From: a virus
Strand: one strand, 5' to 3'
IMG/VR virus record: IMGVR_UViG_3300032093_000340
Span: 1 to 39,179 of that record
DNA: 39,179 nucleotides
Both the position numbers and the translations under genes were made by a program. This document shows, piece after piece, positions 9,845 to 28,941 of the stretch (positions within the stretch are counted from its first letter, which is position 1; every line of letters begins with the position of its first letter). The notes beneath the pieces are model-generated. The model did not search any database and was not told the DNA's origin. It saw only the letters and a list, made by a program, of their open reading frames with translations.

Positions 9845-10999
9845 TTAGCGTTCCGTTGCTTCAATATTCATATTTAACGTAGACACACCATCTGCTAACT
9901 TATCAAGTAACTCGGGTGTTACTGATACGATTACAGTTTGTGATGCTCTTGGTCCTATGTTAAACGAAGCTACTCCGTTACGTTCTACACCATTTACTGA
10001 AATTTTTACACTATCGTTAGTTCTAATTTGTATTCCGTATGTAATTCCAAATGACGGATTAATAACCTTAAATAATTTAGTCTCTGGATAAATTGACGAT
10101 CCTCTTCTCCAGGTAAATCTTAATGCCTCACTCAAACTTGGTTCAAATGCAATTTCAGTTCTAGGTTCCCAACACGTTCCACCACCCGCACCTTGAAATG
10201 CAGATTGTACGTATCCATCTGGAATATTACCTTCTTTTATTAACCCATCTATGCAACTTCTCCAGGTAAAAATTGGTGCAGGAGTTGGTGCCGGTGTTAT
10301 TGGCGCCGGAGTTATTGGAGCCGGGGTTGTTGGTGAAGGCGTTACATTTGGTGCATTTGGTGATGGAGTTATTGGTGAAGGCGTTGGTATTAATTCAAAT
10401 TCTGCTTCAAAAGTTTCCCCAGATATAAATCCTAATCCATTTGATAACGTATTAGCTGTTTGTGGGGTAAATGTTAATGTATTATCAGATGTAAATGTAC
10501 CTCCTGCTTTTTTCCATCTAACAAATCTCCACCCAACTGTAGGAGTTGCTAGTGCGGTAACTGTTTCTCCAATTTGTCTACCTACAATAATTTCATTGGT
10601 AATTTCTTGACCATCTATAGTAAATTTACCAGCATTTGAATTTGCAGGAGTTACTCGAAGTCTAAATGAATAAATTACTGCTTCAGGTGATGGAGTTGCA
10701 ACTGCTTCAGGTGATGGAGTTATAGGTGATGGAGTTGCAACTGCTTCAGGTGATGGAGTTATAGGTGATGGAGTTATAGGTGATGGTGTTGTAGCTATTG
10801 GCGACGGAGTTACCGGCGACGGAGTTACCGGTGATGGTGTTACCGGCGACGGAGTTACCGGCGACGGAGTTACAGGTGATGGCGTTACAGGTGATGGCGT
10901 TGTAGCTATTGGCGACGGAGTTACCGGCGAAGATGTTACTCGTTCAAATACTGGTGTTATTTCGTAATTAGCATCTACTGTTATAGTTAATTGTGCCAT
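9845..10999 (-). CDS. Repeat-rich fibre-like protein with TPSP repeats
   Basis: 384 residues. After a short N-terminal beta segment, residues about 23-107 are an almost pure Pro/Thr/Ser repeat built on TPSPV and TPSPI units. A domain of about 85 residues with the GWRFVRWKKAGG motif follows, resembling the InlB B-repeat/Listeria-type bacterial repeat. A second Pro-rich linker (TPAPITPAP) leads to a C-terminal beta domain containing Cys and Trp (WRSCIDGL, CWEPRTEI). The architecture is a rigid stalk carrying adhesin-like modules, which fits a fibre or receptor-contact protein. That function is inferred. The neighbouring 302-residue protein has the same style. The DNA repeat makes this gene prone to length change. 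Confidence 0.62.
   Translation of the reverse strand: MAQLTITVDANYEITPVFERVTSSPVTPSPIATTPSPVTPSPVTPSPVTPSPVTPSPVTPSPVTPSPIATTPSPITPSPITPSPEAVATPSPITPSPEAVATPSPEAVIYSFRLRVTPANSNAGKFTIDGQEITNEIIVGRQIGETVTALATPTVGWRFVRWKKAGGTFTSDNTLTFTPQTANTLSNGLGFISGETFEAEFELIPTPSPITPSPNAPNVTPSPTTPAPITPAPITPAPTPAPIFTWRSCIDGLIKEGNIPDGYVQSAFQGAGGGTCWEPRTEIAFEPSLSEALRFTWRRGSSIYPETKLFKVINPSFGITYGIQIRTNDSVKISVNGVERNGVASFNIGPRASQTVIVSVTPELLDKLADGVSTLNMNIEATER
10263..10390 (-). repeat. Short Pro-Ala/Ser-Pro coding repeats
   Basis: Degenerate 15-base units encode TPAPI/TPSPI in the second linker of the fibre-like gene. They are less regular than the array at 10681-10930. Confidence 0.6.
10681..10930 (-). repeat. Tandem 15-base coding repeat array (TPSPV units)
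   Basis: About a dozen near-identical 15-base units (plus-strand form GGCGACGGAGTTACC or GGTGATGGAGTTATA) lie head to tail. They are interrupted twice by a unit encoding Ile/Ala/Thr-Thr and, nearer the 3' end, by Glu-Ala-Val-Ala. Neighbouring units are identical at base level, so recent duplication and slippage are likely. Confidence 0.9.
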
Positions 11000-21072: not shown

Positions 21073-22107
21073 TCATAGAAGATGTGGGCGGGCTTCGTTA
21101 ATCCCAGCGTTTGTTACACGCACATAATCAGGATAAAACTCTGCTATGTTATTAGCTCCCGCATAAGAAAGTGCTGAGCGCAATCCGTCTAGTAGACCTT
21201 CAACGATAAACTTCACTCCACCCTTAAAAGGTACAACCGTAGACTCTCCCTCAACGTTCCTAATTGATTGCCCATGCACACTCTTTGTTTCAAGTGATGC
21301 AGCACCACGATACCGCTTATATAATCCATTCGACTTCTCAATAATTGCTCCAGGTGCTTCTTTTGTTCCTGCGATAAGTGAACCTAAAATAACAGAATCA
21401 GCTCCAACAGCCAAAGCTTTTGCAATATCACCACTATTACGAATACCGCCGCACGCAATAATGGGTACATTTGCCTCTGTAGCACAGTGCTGTAGTGATG
21501 TTACGTTTGGTACGCCGAACCCCGTCTTTACTCTAGTCGTACACAAAGAGCCACCACCAATTCCTACTCGAATTGCATCTGCACCCCAAGACTGTAATGC
21601 GTGGGCTGCTTCTCCAGTAGCTACATTTCCAGCAATAACATCTACTTTAGACGGTAACGTTTTTTTCAAATTTTCAATAGCGTCCTTTACAAATTTGTGA
21701 TATCCGTGTGCTACATCAATCAATATAATATTGACCCCAGCATCTACAAGTGCCTGAGCACGTTCCAGATAATCACCGTTTGCCCCCACCGCTGCCATAA
21801 CAGGAATAGGACAATTCCACTCCTTATGCAAATCTTCGTCATTTATTGCAGAAATAACATGCAAGACTTCTACGATTTGTTCCGAAACCGTATTAAATCT
21901 GTGGATACATCCAACTCCACCCAATCGTGCCATTGCTACTGCCATATCGCTTTCACAGACAGTATCCATTGGTGATGCAATAAGAGGGACCATTAACTTA
22001 TAATTAGTGGTCAATCGTGTTGATAAATCAATTTTCTGTCTAGATTCAATCTCCGAATACCTCGGAATTAATTGAATATCATCATAAGTTAGCGATTCAT
22101 TAGCCAT
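21073..22107 (-). CDS. IMP dehydrogenase / GMP reductase family enzyme
   Basis: 344 residues, a TIM barrel without a CBS insert. Family blocks are clear: SLTYDDIQLIPRYSEI at the start, ASPMDTVCESDMAVAMARLG (about 44-63), GIGGGSLCTTRVKTGFGVP with presumed catalytic Cys189, IACGGIRNSGDIAKALAVGA and KRYRGAASLETK. The length equals that of GMP reductase (about 345) rather than full IMPDH (about 490). Features are mixed: CTTRVKTG and VPFKGGV recall GMP reductase, while GTKEAPG and YRGAAS recall IMPDH. It would convert IMP to XMP, or GMP to IMP, and so tune the guanine pool for phage DNA synthesis. It ends 10 bases before the lytic-enzyme gene and follows the glycosyltransferase by two bases. Confidence 0.85.
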   Translation of the reverse strand: MANESLTYDDIQLIPRYSEIESRQKIDLSTRLTTNYKLMVPLIASPMDTVCESDMAVAMARLGGVGCIHRFNTVSEQIVEVLHVISAINDEDLHKEWNCPIPVMAAVGANGDYLERAQALVDAGVNIILIDVAHGYHKFVKDAIENLKKTLPSKVDVIAGNVATGEAAHALQSWGADAIRVGIGGGSLCTTRVKTGFGVPNVTSLQHCATEANVPIIACGGIRNSGDIAKALAVGADSVILGSLIAGTKEAPGAIIEKSNGLYKRYRGAASLETKSVHGQSIRNVEGESTVVPFKGGVKFIVEGLLDGLRSALSYAGANNIAEFYPDYVRVTNAGINEARPHLL

Positions 22108-22109
22108 AA

Positions 22110-22736
22110 TTACCTCTGTATTGTTCCATAATAGTCGTTCTGTTTGCGTTGTCTTTCAATATCTTTCACATGATACAAAGACCACTCTTCTTCCGGTGGT
22201 AAATTTGCTATAGTTTTACATCCGACAATTCGTTCGTGGACTTTTCCTTCCCATTTGATATCTTTAGAATTTCTATATAGTCGAGTTTGATAATCTGGGA
22301 ACATTACCCATCCTAATTCATTTACTTGCCATCCCCAACGACGAATATCTTCTTCAGTCAATCCACTGACGACATTAACACGCGGAATTAAAAATAAATC
22401 TACGTTAGTATTATTATACACAATATCATGCATGTATGTCAAGAGGTTTGAATGAAATTTTTCATCAGCGTCTACTTGAAAAATATAATCACCTCGACAC
22501 AAAGAGTTTAGATAATTTTTGTGCTCAGAAAAATCGTTGTCTAACGAGTGACTATATAACCGAATTCTGTCGGCGTCAAAATGTGTGTATAAAATTTGTG
22601 ATGTGAACTCATCTGTGGAGTTGTCATCAACGACGACAATCTCATCTCCCGTATTTTCGCAGTGGGGGATGAGTTGATCGAGAAGGTCTTGGATATATAG
22701 TCCTTCGTTGTGTGTTGTTATCGCAAATGAAATCAT
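22110..22736 (-). CDS. Family 2 glycosyltransferase
   Basis: 208 residues. The fold starts MISFAITTHNEGLYIQDLLD, with EIVVVDDNSTDEFTS at about 32-46 for nucleotide-sugar binding and FQVDADEKF (Asp89-x-Asp91) as the metal-binding DxD. The later part WEGKVHERIV is typical of short GT2 enzymes that add a single sugar. There is no membrane segment. In phages such enzymes may glycosylate DNA, capsid or host glycans; the target is unknown. Its ATG overlaps the stop of uvsE by four bases, so the two are co-translated. Confidence 0.78.
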   Translation of the reverse strand: MISFAITTHNEGLYIQDLLDQLIPHCENTGDEIVVVDDNSTDEFTSQILYTHFDADRIRLYSHSLDNDFSEHKNYLNSLCRGDYIFQVDADEKFHSNLLTYMHDIVYNNTNVDLFLIPRVNVVSGLTEEDIRRWGWQVNELGWVMFPDYQTRLYRNSKDIKWEGKVHERIVGCKTIANLPPEEEWSLYHVKDIERQRKQNDYYGTIQR

Positions 22737-23632
22737 ACCAACTCTCTGTATTTAAATAATGCCAGTTCTTTTGCTTTCGCTTCAAGGTCAACATCAATTG
22801 TCAGTCCAAAATCATCAATCACAGTAAACACATAATCGGCATGAGCACGTGGATTACCTTTGACGTTTTCGTTGATATTTTTACTTTCACTATAATGAAA
22901 CAATGGAGTGATACCTTCTGGCCAAGTTCCAGCGGAAAGTTCTGCAGCGTCTTGTGTGGTTAATCCATCTGAATGAAACTGGTGATGAAAATAGTCGAAG
23001 GTAAGTGGAATACCAAGCTCTGTATGTAGATATGTAAACAGTTGAATAATAGAGAATGCCGATTCCTTGTCATCGTTTTCGACGACCATACGTGCTTGAA
23101 GATTCGGTGACAAACGACGATAGTTGTCAATCCAACGTTGTGCGGTTTCTTCGGAAAAGTTCATACCAACGTGGATATTGATGGCGTTGTACGGACTGGC
23201 TTCCAGACCCATATAGTCAAATACGGTAGAATGAAGTTCCAAATCCTTTATAGAATTCAATACAACCGACTCTTTCTCCGAACCCAACTTTACAAAGTGA
23301 TCGGGGTGTGCGGTGATACGTTGACCAGTTGCCTTGGCAAAATCACCACATTCCTTCAACTTACTGACAATCGCAAAATAGTCGGGGAGGTGCGTTTCTT
23401 TGTATTCTGTACCCCACGGGAAAATACCCGACCCCATACGGAACACCTTGACACCATTATCGGCGTTCCACTTTAGAATAGTCAGTAGGTCATTAGCGTT
23501 AGCAAGTGCGAGTTCAGATGCGTACTTCAACCCCTTAGCTTCAAAGGTTGCTTTACGCATAGCGCGACCTGTAGTAATTTTTTTCTTTTGTAGTGTAGTA
23601 TTGATACAACAATAACCAACGTTATGTGGCAT
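22733..23632 (-). CDS. uvsE: UV damage endonuclease, UvsE/UVDE family
   Basis: 299 residues, a TIM-barrel endonuclease that nicks 5' to UV photoproducts. Family motifs run in order: GYCCINTTLQKKK (residues 6-18), FRMGSGIFPWG, RITAHPDHFVKLGS, INIHVGM, MVVENDDK, TFDYFHHQFHS and FHYSESKN followed by RAHADYV. The His, Asp and Glu residues of these blocks form the metal cluster. It allows repair of phage DNA in sunlit habitats. A strong sigma70-type promoter lies just upstream (23660-23688), so it is probably an early gene. The gene is visibly richer in G and C than its neighbours, and its codon use differs. Confidence 0.88.
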   Translation of the reverse strand: MPHNVGYCCINTTLQKKKITTGRAMRKATFEAKGLKYASELALANANDLLTILKWNADNGVKVFRMGSGIFPWGTEYKETHLPDYFAIVSKLKECGDFAKATGQRITAHPDHFVKLGSEKESVVLNSIKDLELHSTVFDYMGLEASPYNAINIHVGMNFSEETAQRWIDNYRRLSPNLQARMVVENDDKESAFSIIQLFTYLHTELGIPLTFDYFHHQFHSDGLTTQDAAELSAGTWPEGITPLFHYSESKNINENVKGNPRAHADYVFTVIDDFGLTIDVDLEAKAKELALFKYRELV

Positions 23633-25647: not shown

Positions 25648-26283
25648 CTAAAATCGAGTTTTGTCGTTTTCTACTCGACTTGAAATATGATCAGCCCAAT
25701 GAATGATATATGGGAGATTTGTTTTCATCGCATATGGTGCGAAGTTAATTAGGTAAGATTTGTTACCTTCGTCGTAGATACCATCGGAGAGCTTGATAGC
25801 CAACCACTCGTTCTGTGTTACCTGTACACCGTACTTCTGTAGGAGGAAGAGTCCACGTTCTGGGGCCTTCATGTACTGAATATTCTCATTCTGACGGTAA
25901 AGTTCACCACGCTTCCGATGCCAATCACTATCTTGCTCAACGTAGTATGGGCCCTCTTCGGGATTTCCAAGTTTACCAAGGTCGTGATGAAGGGCGGCAA
26001 AGATAAGTTCTTGCTTGGTGAAATTGATATCACCTTCCATTCCCTTATATAGACCAGCAATCTTCAACGCGGTATCGGTAACACGGAGAATGTGGTCGAG
26101 GTATCCGCCGGGAAAAGCATTGTGAAAATGAACCTTTCCAGATGCGGGCGCAATCAAAAGTTCATCTTGTAGTACATCATAGAGTGGCTTCAACTGTTCC
26201 CAACGGGGATCAGCTTGGAGATACTCCATAAATTTGTTATAATTTTCTTGAATTTTTTCTTCTGAATTTTCGATTGTAAACAT
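25648..26283 (-). CDS. HD-domain phosphohydrolase
   Basis: 211 residues. The HD metal site is readable: His64 (GGYLDH), the double motif LHHDLGKLG with His100-Asp101, and a later Asp in IIHWADHISS. The first 60 residues form a helical lead with WEQLKPLYDVLQDEL. HD proteins of this type hydrolyse nucleotides or cyclic nucleotides; the substrate here cannot be told. In a phage a nucleotide-pool or anti-signal role is possible (inference). The gene is richer in G and C than those around it. It is followed by a very strong hairpin. Confidence 0.75.
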   Translation of the reverse strand: MFTIENSEEKIQENYNKFMEYLQADPRWEQLKPLYDVLQDELLIAPASGKVHFHNAFPGGYLDHILRVTDTALKIAGLYKGMEGDINFTKQELIFAALHHDLGKLGNPEEGPYYVEQDSDWHRKRGELYRQNENIQYMKAPERGLFLLQKYGVQVTQNEWLAIKLSDGIYDEGNKSYLINFAPYAMKTNLPYIIHWADHISSRVENDKTRF

Positions 26284-26310: not shown

Positions 26311-26844
26311 TTACGATATAAGATGTTTTTCAAACATATGACGCTTATTGGAATGCTTCATCCATAGTTCAAATATAGTCGGTGTGGTTGGAATTTTCAA
26401 GAGGGTCATATTAGTATCATCTAACATATAATGTGCTTTTTTATTGTTGCACGTAGAACAAGCGGTAACAAGATTATCCCAGGTAGATTTACCACCCCTA
26501 TATTCTGGAATAATATGATCTCTAGTCAAAAACTCTCTAGTTCTAAATTCAGATTTATGTCTACCGCAGTATTGACATGTATTATTATCTCTAGTAAAAA
26601 GATTTTTCTGTGTCAATGTCGCTTTGGTTTGAAAGATTTTTCTACACTTTACAAATTCTTTCAAAGCTACCATAACTGGTACTTTAAAACTTTGACGTAC
26701 AGAACGGACTACTAGATGTGGATGTTCTTCAACCACAGTAGCCTTGCCTTCAAAAATAAGGAGTAACGCACGTTTGGCGGTTACAATAGAAAGTGGTTCA
26801 TAACTAGCATTTAGAACCACACACCGTGAACTTTCGAATTCCAT
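26311..26844 (-). CDS. HNH endonuclease
   Basis: 177 residues. The N-terminus (CVVLNASYEPLSIVTAKRAL, then LLIFEGKATVVE) is the lead domain seen in bacterial and phage stand-alone HNH enzymes. The zinc site Cys90-x-x-Cys93 (CQYCGRHK) pairs with Cys129/Cys132 (ACSTCNNKK). The HNH core has Asp109-His110 (TRDHIIPEYRGG), Asn124 (WDNLV) and His138 (KKAHYM). It cuts double-stranded DNA and may be a free-standing homing nuclease or part of host-DNA breakdown. Start codon at an ordinary ATG; it ends 27 bases before the HD gene. Confidence 0.85.
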   Translation of the reverse strand: MEFESSRCVVLNASYEPLSIVTAKRALLLIFEGKATVVEEHPHLVVRSVRQSFKVPVMVALKEFVKCRKIFQTKATLTQKNLFTRDNNTCQYCGRHKSEFRTREFLTRDHIIPEYRGGKSTWDNLVTACSTCNNKKAHYMLDDTNMTLLKIPTTPTIFELWMKHSNKRHMFEKHLIS

Positions 26845-27533: not shown

Positions 27534-27803
27534 TTAACCTCTTGATTTCCACAATCGATATTTTTTATTCCAATATCTTACAACTACTTGAACCTTTCCC
27601 CGTGCCCAAGGTGGATTCCCAAGTCGTTCAATATGGTTTCTAAACGCCTTAAGGTCTTGCCGTGCTGATAGTAGTTCGGTAAGCGTTGTTGCAAAGAATA
27701 TTGTTTTTAACAATTCCTTATACTTTTCTTCTACAATCTGTTGTTCAGACACAGTTGTGTATCCGAATACAAAAGCCAGAAAGCGTTTAAATTTCTCATA
27801 CAT
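27534..27803 (-). CDS. Small helical hypothetical protein
   Basis: 89 residues from the ATG at 27803, with GGAG eight bases upstream; an in-frame TTG four codons earlier is less likely. The N-terminus is amphipathic or weakly membrane-associated (YEKFKRFLAFVFGYTTV). The rest is charged helix (EEKYKELLKTIFFATTLTEL) ending in a Trp/Arg/Lys-rich segment (VVVRYWNKKYRLWKSRG). It lies between the tmRNA and the zinc-ribbon gene. Function unknown. Confidence 0.58.
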   Translation of the reverse strand: MYEKFKRFLAFVFGYTTVSEQQIVEEKYKELLKTIFFATTLTELLSARQDLKAFRNHIERLGNPPWARGKVQVVVRYWNKKYRLWKSRG

Positions 27804-27845
27804 AGTACTCTCCAACTAAAATTTAAACACTAACCGTCTTTTTTA

Positions 27846-28183
27846 TGGACCCGGCGGGAATCGAACCCGCGTCCGAGATTGCTTCCTATCAAGGATTTAT
27901 GTGTGTAGTCAGTTATTGAAATTCATCCAGTTCTCGTTAACTAACAAACGTAAACTGAACATAGAACCGAAGTATCACCTTGAATACGGTTCCTATCAAG
28001 GCTATACCGTATGAATAAACAAATTAACCGTATACGGTCTATCGGGTTAATTCGTCAGGCTGCAATTAAGCAGCGAGGGCTAAATTATAGTTGCCAGTTA
28101 GATTTTTTGGTCTGTTTTACTCGTCTTACCAAACGAGACACAAAGCTTAATCATCCACACCCCGTCGAAACCAAGACGGGCCC
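27846..28183 (-). ncRNA. ssrA: Transfer-messenger RNA (tmRNA), tag GNYNLALAA
   Basis: 338 nt. The 5' end GGGCCCGTC(TTGG)TTTCGACGGGG has the tmRNA hallmark. The 3' end carries the T-arm CGCGGGTTCGATTCCCGC and then CGGGTCC plus discriminator A. Seven acceptor pairs form (one G-U), and CCA is not encoded. The mRNA-like part reads GGC AAC TAT AAT TTA GCC CTC GCT GCT TAA (28095-28066), that is GNYNLALAA, ending in the ALAA proteolysis signal. It would free stalled ribosomes and tag nascent proteins for ClpXP-type proteases. The tag start at Gly is chosen by comparison with tags beginning with Gly in other phyla and is not proven. It lies between the genes at 28190 and 27803 and is probably processed from a longer transcript. 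Confidence 0.93.
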
Positions 28184-28189
28184 GTAAAC

Positions 28190-28336
28190 TTATATTTGAA
28201 ATTTTGTATTATCGTTATTATCACCATCAGTACCACCACCGCCGCCACCGCCGGAAACTACAGTCTTAACATCTTTCTTAAATCCAAACTTCCAAATTAA
28301 CACTGCTGCAACAGCTATTATCAATAGTACTTTCAT
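28190..28336 (-). CDS. Small membrane protein with Gly-rich tail
   Basis: 48 residues from the ATG at 28336 (MKVLLIIAVAAVLIWKFGFK). A longer frame starts inside an upstream promoter-like segment and is rejected. Residues 2-15 make one membrane helix, then a short basic stretch and a seven-Gly run followed by an acidic Asp/Asn tail. A TATTTATATTA box lies 35 bases upstream, so late expression is likely. It ends six bases before the 5' end of the tmRNA and may share its primary transcript. Function unknown. Confidence 0.58.
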   Translation of the reverse strand: MKVLLIIAVAAVLIWKFGFKKDVKTVVSGGGGGGGTDGDNNDNTKFQI

Positions 28337-28371
28337 ATACGTTTCTCTGTTGGAGTAAAAGTTTATACTAC

Positions 28372-28382
28372 TAATATAAATA
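28372..28382 (-). promoter_or_regulatory. Candidate late-promoter box (or sigma70 -10)
   Basis: The minus strand reads TATTTATATTA, ending 35 bases before the ATG at 28336. A TTGACT lies 18 bases upstream of the TATATT inside this box, so a host-type promoter is an alternative here. It may drive the small membrane gene and the tmRNA. Confidence 0.5.
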
Positions 28383-28409
28383 GTAACTATAATAAAAGTC
28401 AAGTGGTTT

Positions 28410-28877
28410 CTACTGATTATGCACCGTGGTAATTTGTAGTATTTTGTACTCTACTGTACTCGACGGTAGTTTAACTTTTACCACATCCTTTACTTTTTTT
28501 CCTTTCATCGATTGTCCAATTGGTGAGGAAATCGTGACATGATTATATTTTTCATCACCATCGTCGATATCACCTAATACAAACTTAAAATATTCAATTT
28601 TACTAGTATTTAAATTTCTAGCTTTAACTATGGAACCAATATGCACCGCATCTTTCGGTAATAAATTTATATCTATTTTACGATATGACTCCAAACGTTC
28701 TAATAACTGGTGTAGCCTGACGCCGATGAAATGTTGACGTTCTGCTATAGCAGAATAGTCGGAGTTTTCTCGTATGTCACCCATTGACACTGCCGAATCA
28801 AACTCTTGTGGGATAGTAACAGATAATTCATATTTTAACTGTTCTATTTCTTCTATTAAATTTTTTAATGGATCCAT
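28410..28877 (-). CDS. GreA/GreB-like transcription elongation factor
   Basis: 155 residues, the size of GreA (158). The N-terminal coiled coil has MGDIRENSDYSAIAERQHFI with the acidic tip residues (Asp34, Glu37) that would reach the RNA polymerase active centre. The C-terminal FKBP-like domain shows ISSPIGQSMKGKKVKDVVKV, the family block. Gre factors rescue backtracked polymerase by stimulating transcript cleavage. A phage-encoded copy could alter host polymerase or support late transcription with gp55. A 14-bp perfect hairpin lies in its leader (28899-28941). Distinction between GreA and GreB cannot be made. Confidence 0.86.
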   Translation of the reverse strand: MDPLKNLIEEIEQLKYELSVTIPQEFDSAVSMGDIRENSDYSAIAERQHFIGVRLHQLLERLESYRKIDINLLPKDAVHIGSIVKARNLNTSKIEYFKFVLGDIDDGDEKYNHVTISSPIGQSMKGKKVKDVVKVKLPSSTVEYKILQITTVHNQ

Positions 28878-28898: not shown

Positions 28899-28941
28899 AT
28901 ACAGAATGGAAACGAGTTATATACCCATTTCCATTCTGTAT
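28899..28941 (-). other. Perfect 14-bp hairpin in the greA-like leader
   Basis: ATACAGAATGGAAA pairs without mismatch with TTTCCATTCTGTAT across a 15-base loop. On the minus strand it is followed by TACTTTG, not a U-run. It separates the winged-helix-like gene from the Gre gene and may protect or cut the mRNA. Confidence 0.6.

Follow-up and report, generated by a model that had tools for sequence, protein, structure and literature searches.

Phage-encoded tmRNAs are already known, and one survey counted them in 402 of 18,146 phage genomes (PMC9004378), so that the description "rare in phages" in the first-pass annotation of the DNA studied here stands and can be refined to about 2%. The precedent named there, that of the cluster C mycobacteriophages, holds as well. 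The tmRNA of phage Wildcat is reported to be the most highly expressed lytic gene of that phage (PMC7474061), which is evidence for the use of phage tmRNA genes. As for the peptide tag, the C-terminal ALAA, recognised by ClpX/ClpA, is described as conserved, with Mycoplasma as the exception: its tag ends in AFA, and it lacks ClpXP (PMC3985003). Phage tmRNAs have so far been counted and hardly explained. The tmRNA described below is a new example, and its wider family holds more of interest than this one gene.

Detection and anatomy of the tmRNA gene

The window, i.e. the whole stretch of DNA analysed (39,179 bp), comes from a freshwater virus of bacteria and is a viral record of IMG/VR. ARAGORN found one tmRNA and five tRNAs in it. 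The tmRNA was called at exactly 27846-28183 on the minus strand, as the complete phage-encoded gene claimed by the first-pass annotation, which gave no strand. Comparison with the Rfam tmRNA model RF00023, suggested there as a check, covered the whole model (1-374) with 141.2 bits (E 1.7e-55) against a gathering cut-off of 47 bits; a riboswitch was not found in the window with Rfam. The motif TTTCGACGGGG and the tRNA-like 3' end, the latter with its T arm, are present as previously described, and ARAGORN read the same tag, GNYNLALAA. The parts of the gene are the following.

27846..28183, minus strand: tmRNA gene (ssrA), one-piece, 338 nt (ARAGORN; RF00023, 141.2 bits)
28177..28183, minus strand: acceptor stem, 5' strand GGGCCCG, including G3 (script reading of 11 clade members)
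27847..27853, minus strand: acceptor stem, 3' strand CGGGUCC, pairing with GGGCCCG and giving G3-U
27846, minus strand: discriminator A, followed in the genome by TAA
28138..28164, minus strand: helix H2, 5' side (drawn structure, alignment)
27874..27904, minus strand: helix H2, 3' side (drawn structure, alignment)
28107..28137, minus strand: pseudoknot PK1, upstream of the resume codon (RNA stems 47-51/60-64 and 52-56/73-77)
28066..28095, minus strand: tag reading frame GGC...GCT TAA, peptide GNYNLALAA (ARAGORN; alignment of 11 relatives)
28056..28077, minus strand: hairpin H5, with the tag stop codon UAA in its loop (RF00023 match; pair test)
28006..28055, minus strand: pseudoknot PK2 (both-side pair changes in both stems)
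27964..28001, minus strand: pseudoknot PK3 (drawn structure, pair test)
27908..27960, minus strand: pseudoknot PK4 (drawn structure, pair test)
27854..27870, minus strand: T arm GCGGGTTCGATTCCCGC (RF00023 match; pair test)

The resume codon is GGC, at RNA position 89. The RF00023 score, G3-U, T arm, resume codon, stop in H5 and four pseudoknots are those of a standard one-piece tmRNA, whose tRNA-like end is defined by G3-U and a T arm with no anticodon arm. Alanylation, SmpB binding and tagging in the cell are predicted for this RNA. Since the genome goes on TAA after the discriminator A, the 3' CCA is not encoded, as the earlier reading had stated. This is ordinary, because a crude end check, whose filter was passed by 60 of 140 loci, found an encoded CCA in merely 11 of the 60 Bacteroidota tmRNAs. 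A CCA-adding enzyme was not found over the cut-off in any of nine records of the lineage, with one sub-threshold match in G022.

Conservation of structure and frame

The window tmRNA was aligned with ten others of its freshwater clade, giving 11 tmRNAs of which 10 are distinct. Over 85 pairs, four pseudoknots included, 95.6% of the cells are paired (10 distinct rows). Changes on both sides occur at 38 pairs, against a shuffled mean of 20.0 (none of 500 shuffles reached 38) and 5-9 pairs for slid structures, the count being made on the structure drawn on the window sequence, which it somewhat favours. Further pair types were in no excess over the shuffles (145/500). Both-side changes are present in each of PK1-PK4, and in PK1 they concern two pairs in the one stem, of two, that varies.

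As MAFFT misaligned the acceptor stem of the clade tmRNAs, the stem was read by script. G3-U is kept in 11/11 of them, pair 5 being C-G, G-C or A-U and pair 6 C-G, U-A or U-G by compensating changes; G3-U is also present in the five marine relatives' tmRNAs (5/5) and in all 214 Bacteroidota tmRNAs read. The alignment of the 11 phage tmRNAs keeps the frame that starts at the proposed resume codon, with GNYNLALAA in nine and GNQNLALAA and ANNTLALAA in the other two, and the Leu and Ala codons for LALAA differ silently among them. The degree of pairing, together with both-side changes beyond those of shuffled and slid structures, excludes a chance match. An assembly accident is excluded as well, because the tag is shared by 11 viral stretches, each time (11/11) inside a tmRNA. 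The window tmRNA is thus confirmed as a complete, conserved gene whose structure is held by selection.

Phage lineage and gene neighbourhood

Genes of the window include those for a baseplate wedge protein, an IMP dehydrogenase (IMPDH)/GMP reductase-like protein, UvdE, a GreA-like protein, Hsp20, and HD and HNH proteins. Two loci of a 166,598-bp contig (L214 and L078) match the window at 99.99% over 12.5 and 10.7 kb, and by this match the contig is taken to be the long contig of the window's own phage. Next to the tmRNA are:

28410..28877, minus strand: GreA/GreB-like transcription factor, retained next to the tmRNA on its upstream side in the freshwater clade (Pfam PF01272 and PF03449; synteny)
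28190..28402, minus strand: 70-aa ORF separating greA from the tmRNA, present only in the window's own phage among the compared loci
27534..27815, minus strand: 93-aa ORF directly downstream of the tmRNA, kept in the clade (synteny)
26311..26844, minus strand: HNH endonuclease, kept near the tmRNA in the freshwater clade (PF01844; phrog_16726)
25648..26283, minus strand: HD-domain phosphohydrolase (PF01966), with an ortholog downstream of the tmRNA in marine relatives too

Elsewhere in the window, a 19-pair hairpin followed by a T-rich stretch (28899-28941), strongly terminator-like, lies between a 109-aa ORF and the GreA-like gene. Inside the 384-aa ORF at 9845-10999 there are direct repeats (10685-10939; self-matches to L122), which are about 75-180 bases long and 80-90% alike. 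The IMP dehydrogenase/GMP reductase-like gene (21073-22107, 348 bits) had a counterpart in just one of the compared relatives, L140; UvdE (22733-23632) is more widespread in them.

Relatives were found through the baseplate protein (80 loci), and 28 records with longer contigs were searched for the tmRNA. It scored above the cut-off in nine of the 28, and G002 holds its 3' part, cut by the contig end. By a hand count from positions, 14 of the 28 records reach the tmRNA site, 10 carrying the gene and four (G023, G024, G025 and G028) being without it; the 14 records ending before the site were not scored as tmRNA-negative, and G019 is borderline. Complete copies of the gene share the strand of the baseplate gene and stand 8-14 kb upstream of it.

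Cultured relatives by the baseplate protein are Microcystis phage Mel-JY01 (41%) and Flavobacterium phage immuto (38%). Neither complete genome contains a tmRNA, and none was found in the 844-nt gap that Mel-JY01 has at the corresponding position. This annotation-free stretch (L225:6473-7315, Mel-JY01 149966-150808), which precedes the baseplate gene by about 12.7 kb, has no notable Rfam match, and the literature search found no publication on Mel-JY01. Being missing from these two phages and from the four records named above, the tmRNA is dispensable in some of the kin.

Phage genes in the same record, the 99.99% match to the long contig and the same site in relatives mark the tmRNA as phage-encoded. 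Blastn of the tmRNA against 50,697 phage records gave a match in a single record, over 31 bases only. SmpB was found over the cut-off in none of 19 lineage records, so that use of the tmRNA would depend entirely on the SmpB of the host; a sub-threshold match in G009 (17 bits) was a 116-aa ORF judged to be another kind of protein. The tyrosine integrase PF00589 was likewise found in 0/19 records. A quickly built tree of 113 tmRNAs placed the nine included members of the freshwater clade on one branch (support 99) and five marine tmRNAs on another (support 99); the two branches were not joined, and both stood near Bacteroidota, weakly. With 10 of 14 records sharing the site, covarying stems, silent changes in LALAA and neither integrase nor SmpB, the tmRNA is a stable part of the phage genome and no stray host gene.

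The tag GNYNLALAA and the host

The tag was searched for with a codon pattern that allowed all codons, admitted Phe at the Leu positions and ended in TAA or TAG. Exact GNYNLALAA turned up in 11 viral stretches, each of them within a tmRNA of the window's clade; the 84,980 species genomes searched contained no copy (TAA/TAG stops only). The two pattern matches in species genomes were tmRNAs with GNYNFALAA, in a Chitinophagaceae MAG, and GNYNFAFAA, read by eye, in a Patescibacteria MAG; since both have Phe for one or both Leu, no host was named from the tag. Blastn of the window tmRNA matched 24 of 147 Chitinophagaceae genomes, in the T arm only.

For comparison, 225 Bacteroidota tmRNA loci were collected, 214 called by ARAGORN and 11 without a call, as a non-random set made of top and low scorers of profile searches plus Chitinophagaceae. 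Tags ending in AA made up 210 of the 214 (107 MAA, 102 LAA and 1 FAA); of the remaining four, CII, RRL and AGN look like misreadings and one is MTA. For L362, which had two ARAGORN calls, the AA-ending one was used. The first residue was A in 98 tags, G in 77 and D in 36. The comparison with host ssrA tags, proposed earlier for naming the host phylum, showed no exact copy in the species genomes searched. The window tag is of the Bacteroidota form, and the exact peptide is seen only in phages. This lineage of large, contractile-tailed phages probably infects Bacteroidota, in favour of which count the form of the tag, the weakly supported place of its tmRNAs in the tree and the baseplate kinship with Flavobacterium phage immuto; against such a host counts that the closest cultured phage by baseplate is recorded from Microcystis.

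Tags of the marine relatives

Five marine tags were read without bias: GTQFNYAYA, GNTANYAYA, GTQANLTYAYA, GTYSNVAYA and one of 38 residues. A pattern requiring AYA added GNYANVAYA, GNTANFAYA and GTEFNYAYA, 14 of its 21 stretches being such tags in tmRNA context; the tag of L205, misread by ARAGORN, was taken from the alignment. Short AYA-ending tags are present in the tmRNAs of L206, L207, L208, L209, L297, L298, L303 and L307. A search of 395 Bacteroidota genomes for AATTGGC followed by AYA-stop gave five matches against six in the reversed control (4 reverse, 2 forward), which is chance.

A search with the HD protein (80 loci) and a profile of the marine tmRNAs disclosed tmRNAs in 17 of 160 loci. 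Ten long forms were read, giving eight different tags, all with the core SLxGLx[IV]DWHLA. These long-tag tmRNAs measure about 405-415 nt (L142:1313-1720, L503:1992-2407, L504:6980-7383, L518:1913-2325, L524:2814-3228, L529:2526-2935, L563:1179-1587, L570:996-1401; further ones in L575-L694). The core pattern occurs in at least 120 viral stretches, and 117 of the 120 matches listed lie inside tmRNAs. Two of the tags are truncated at contig ends and were excluded (117 to 115), and among the matches listed the 115 tmRNAs yielded 88 distinct frames and 85 peptides, mostly of 34-42 residues, with one of 49. A C-terminal motif, which is outside the pattern, stands in the same frame in 88/88 of the listed frames despite the differences in length; the ends among the matches listed are YAA 35, AYA 29, ANA 6 and others 15.

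Codon differences were counted over pairs of related sequences, which are non-independent. Among the matches listed, WHLA shows 5105 silent differences against 172 not silent, the pattern having forced most residues, and the unforced C-terminal seven codons show 5686 against 5747, where chance would make about a quarter silent. The codons TCG, GGG and TTG barely vary among the matches listed, and for this reason an RNA element may overlap the long-tag frame. The long-tag core was found in none of 164 genomes of one Bacteroidota order; homologs of the long tags were found in neither PDB nor Pfam, with merely an E 7 match in phages, and the open-access literature searched yielded no description of long or AYA marine tags.

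It is possible, and is proposed here tentatively, that the tag of the tmRNA has become, in this lineage, a trait of the phage with a selection of its own, the freshwater clade keeping LAA, a marine sister group having AYA instead, and a large marine group having 34-42 residues with the SLxGLxIDWHLA segment and a QPTYAYA(A) end, and that it can add something beyond a degradation signal. If so, the tags would let the phage add more to stalled chains, e.g. adaptor docking or a chosen protease, and the latter could be the phage ClpP-like enzyme described below.

A ClpP-like peptidase on the long contig

In two of nine records searched (G031 and G033), the long contig of the window's phage and one relative, there is a gene for a ClpP-like protein, 192-195 aa in length (PF00574, 103 and 98 bits).

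L696:1489-2067 (166,598-bp contig) and L697:1492-2079: stand-alone ClpP-like serine peptidase (PF00574)

Ser, His and Asp align with ClpP in both proteins, and these we take to be the ClpP triad. The gene beside it is read as a clamp loader. The best PHROG is phrog_94, head maturation protease (101.6 bits), all NCBIfam ClpP cut-offs are missed by far, and the best phage matches are in Sinorhizobium phage Phosso (56%) and Synechococcus phage BUCT-ZZ01 (48%). The protein may be a ClpP of the phage or a protease of head maturation.

Proposed function

The ordinary partners of trans-translation are SmpB, EF-Tu and alanyl-tRNA synthetase. To the observed presence, structure, frame, conservation and place of the window tmRNA we add the proposal, which we consider likely, that it is a working tmRNA of a contractile-tailed lineage, by which trans-translation with host enzymes frees ribosomes and tags chains for ClpX/ClpP. 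Its transcription, charging, use of host SmpB, protease and benefit to the phage would be as follows. Host enzymes would trim the transcript and then add CCA, and G3-U would let the host alanyl-tRNA synthetase charge it. Host SmpB and EF-Tu would bring it to ribosomes stalled on broken messages, where translation would resume at GGC, so that alanine and GNYNLALAA are added, and would stop at the UAA in H5. The rescued ribosomes would go back to phage translation, and the LAA end would mark the unfinished chain for ClpX with ClpP. The phage would benefit through ribosomes freed when host messages are cut and through removal of partial proteins. Rescue during takeover and delivery of chains to a chosen protease, both put forward in the first-pass annotation, are putative roles in this sense.

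The same RNA might instead act as a decoy, tying up SmpB or alanyl-tRNA synthetase and so weakening host trans-translation, as proposed for the RNA of mycobacteriophage DS6A; a DS6A-like molecule is reported to inhibit tmRNA, perhaps by titrating SmpB (PMC4131195; PMC11915505). The lack of an own SmpB in the window's phage is in line with this. However, the DS6A RNA has little beyond the tRNA-like domain, whereas here tag frame, stop codon, H5 and four pseudoknots are under selection, none of which a decoy needs, and we regard such a role as unlikely.

A different fate of the tagged chains, which would be diverted to the phage ClpP-like peptidase or altered otherwise, and not given to host ClpXP, also appears improbable. 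It would agree with the aligned Ser-His-Asp of the protein in G031 and G033, with the exact tag being found in none of the species genomes searched, and with the changed tag end or length in sister clades, but the peptidase is closest to a head maturation protease by PHROG and far below every NCBIfam ClpP cut-off, and the window's own tag keeps the ordinary LAA end.

Last, it is very unlikely that the gene is a passenger without a role, i.e. a host ssrA caught by chance or left at an attachment site, since, although host ssrA is described as a common integration site with fragments in prophages (PMC9004378; PMC10865867), this gene is whole, has an internal position and shows synteny over a divergent clade, tyrosine integrase was found in none of 19 records, the clade tmRNAs form their own branch and the covariation requires long selection; the narrower case of a prophage attachment-site fragment, a 3' piece beside an integrase, is ruled out by the complete gene and by PF00589 in 0/19. 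A working tmRNA served by host enzymes is accordingly the reading that we retain.

Comparison with known systems

Cluster C mycobacteriophages and Wildcat are described as likewise being large phages that have tRNAs besides a complete tmRNA; they differ in the host phylum, the window tag being of the Bacteroidota form. The OM43 phage Melnitz and pelagiphages resemble the present case as aquatic myophages with a phage-lineage ssrA, but the tmRNA of Melnitz is reported as two-piece, permuted and linked to a glutamine riboswitch (PMC9004378), whereas that of the window is one-piece. Phage tmRNAs are reported from Bacteroidota phages too, in the flavobacterial phages Calle and Panino (PMC8776804, PMC11590407); by these descriptions Panino is set apart through its integrase, of which none was found in the 19 records of the window's lineage. 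The TLD-only RNA of DS6A is also phage-encoded and tmRNA-derived. As described, it has little beyond the tRNA-like domain, whereas the window tmRNA keeps a conserved tag frame and pseudoknots, by which a TLD-only RNA of the DS6A type is ruled out.

The AYA ends of the marine relatives recall the AFA end of Mycoplasma, which reportedly also has long tmRNA tags, like some of these relatives. The hosts of the marine phages, however, are not known to lack ClpXP as Mycoplasma does. For the window a tag of the Mycoplasma type is ruled out, as it ends in LAA and not in AFA.

Here one tmRNA can be followed through a phage lineage, with an ordinary degron, an altered end or a greatly lengthened tag according to the clade. 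Why phages carry a tmRNA thereby becomes testable, by asking what tags are produced and by which protease they are taken, and the phage ClpP-like peptidase makes the protease idea testable without showing it.
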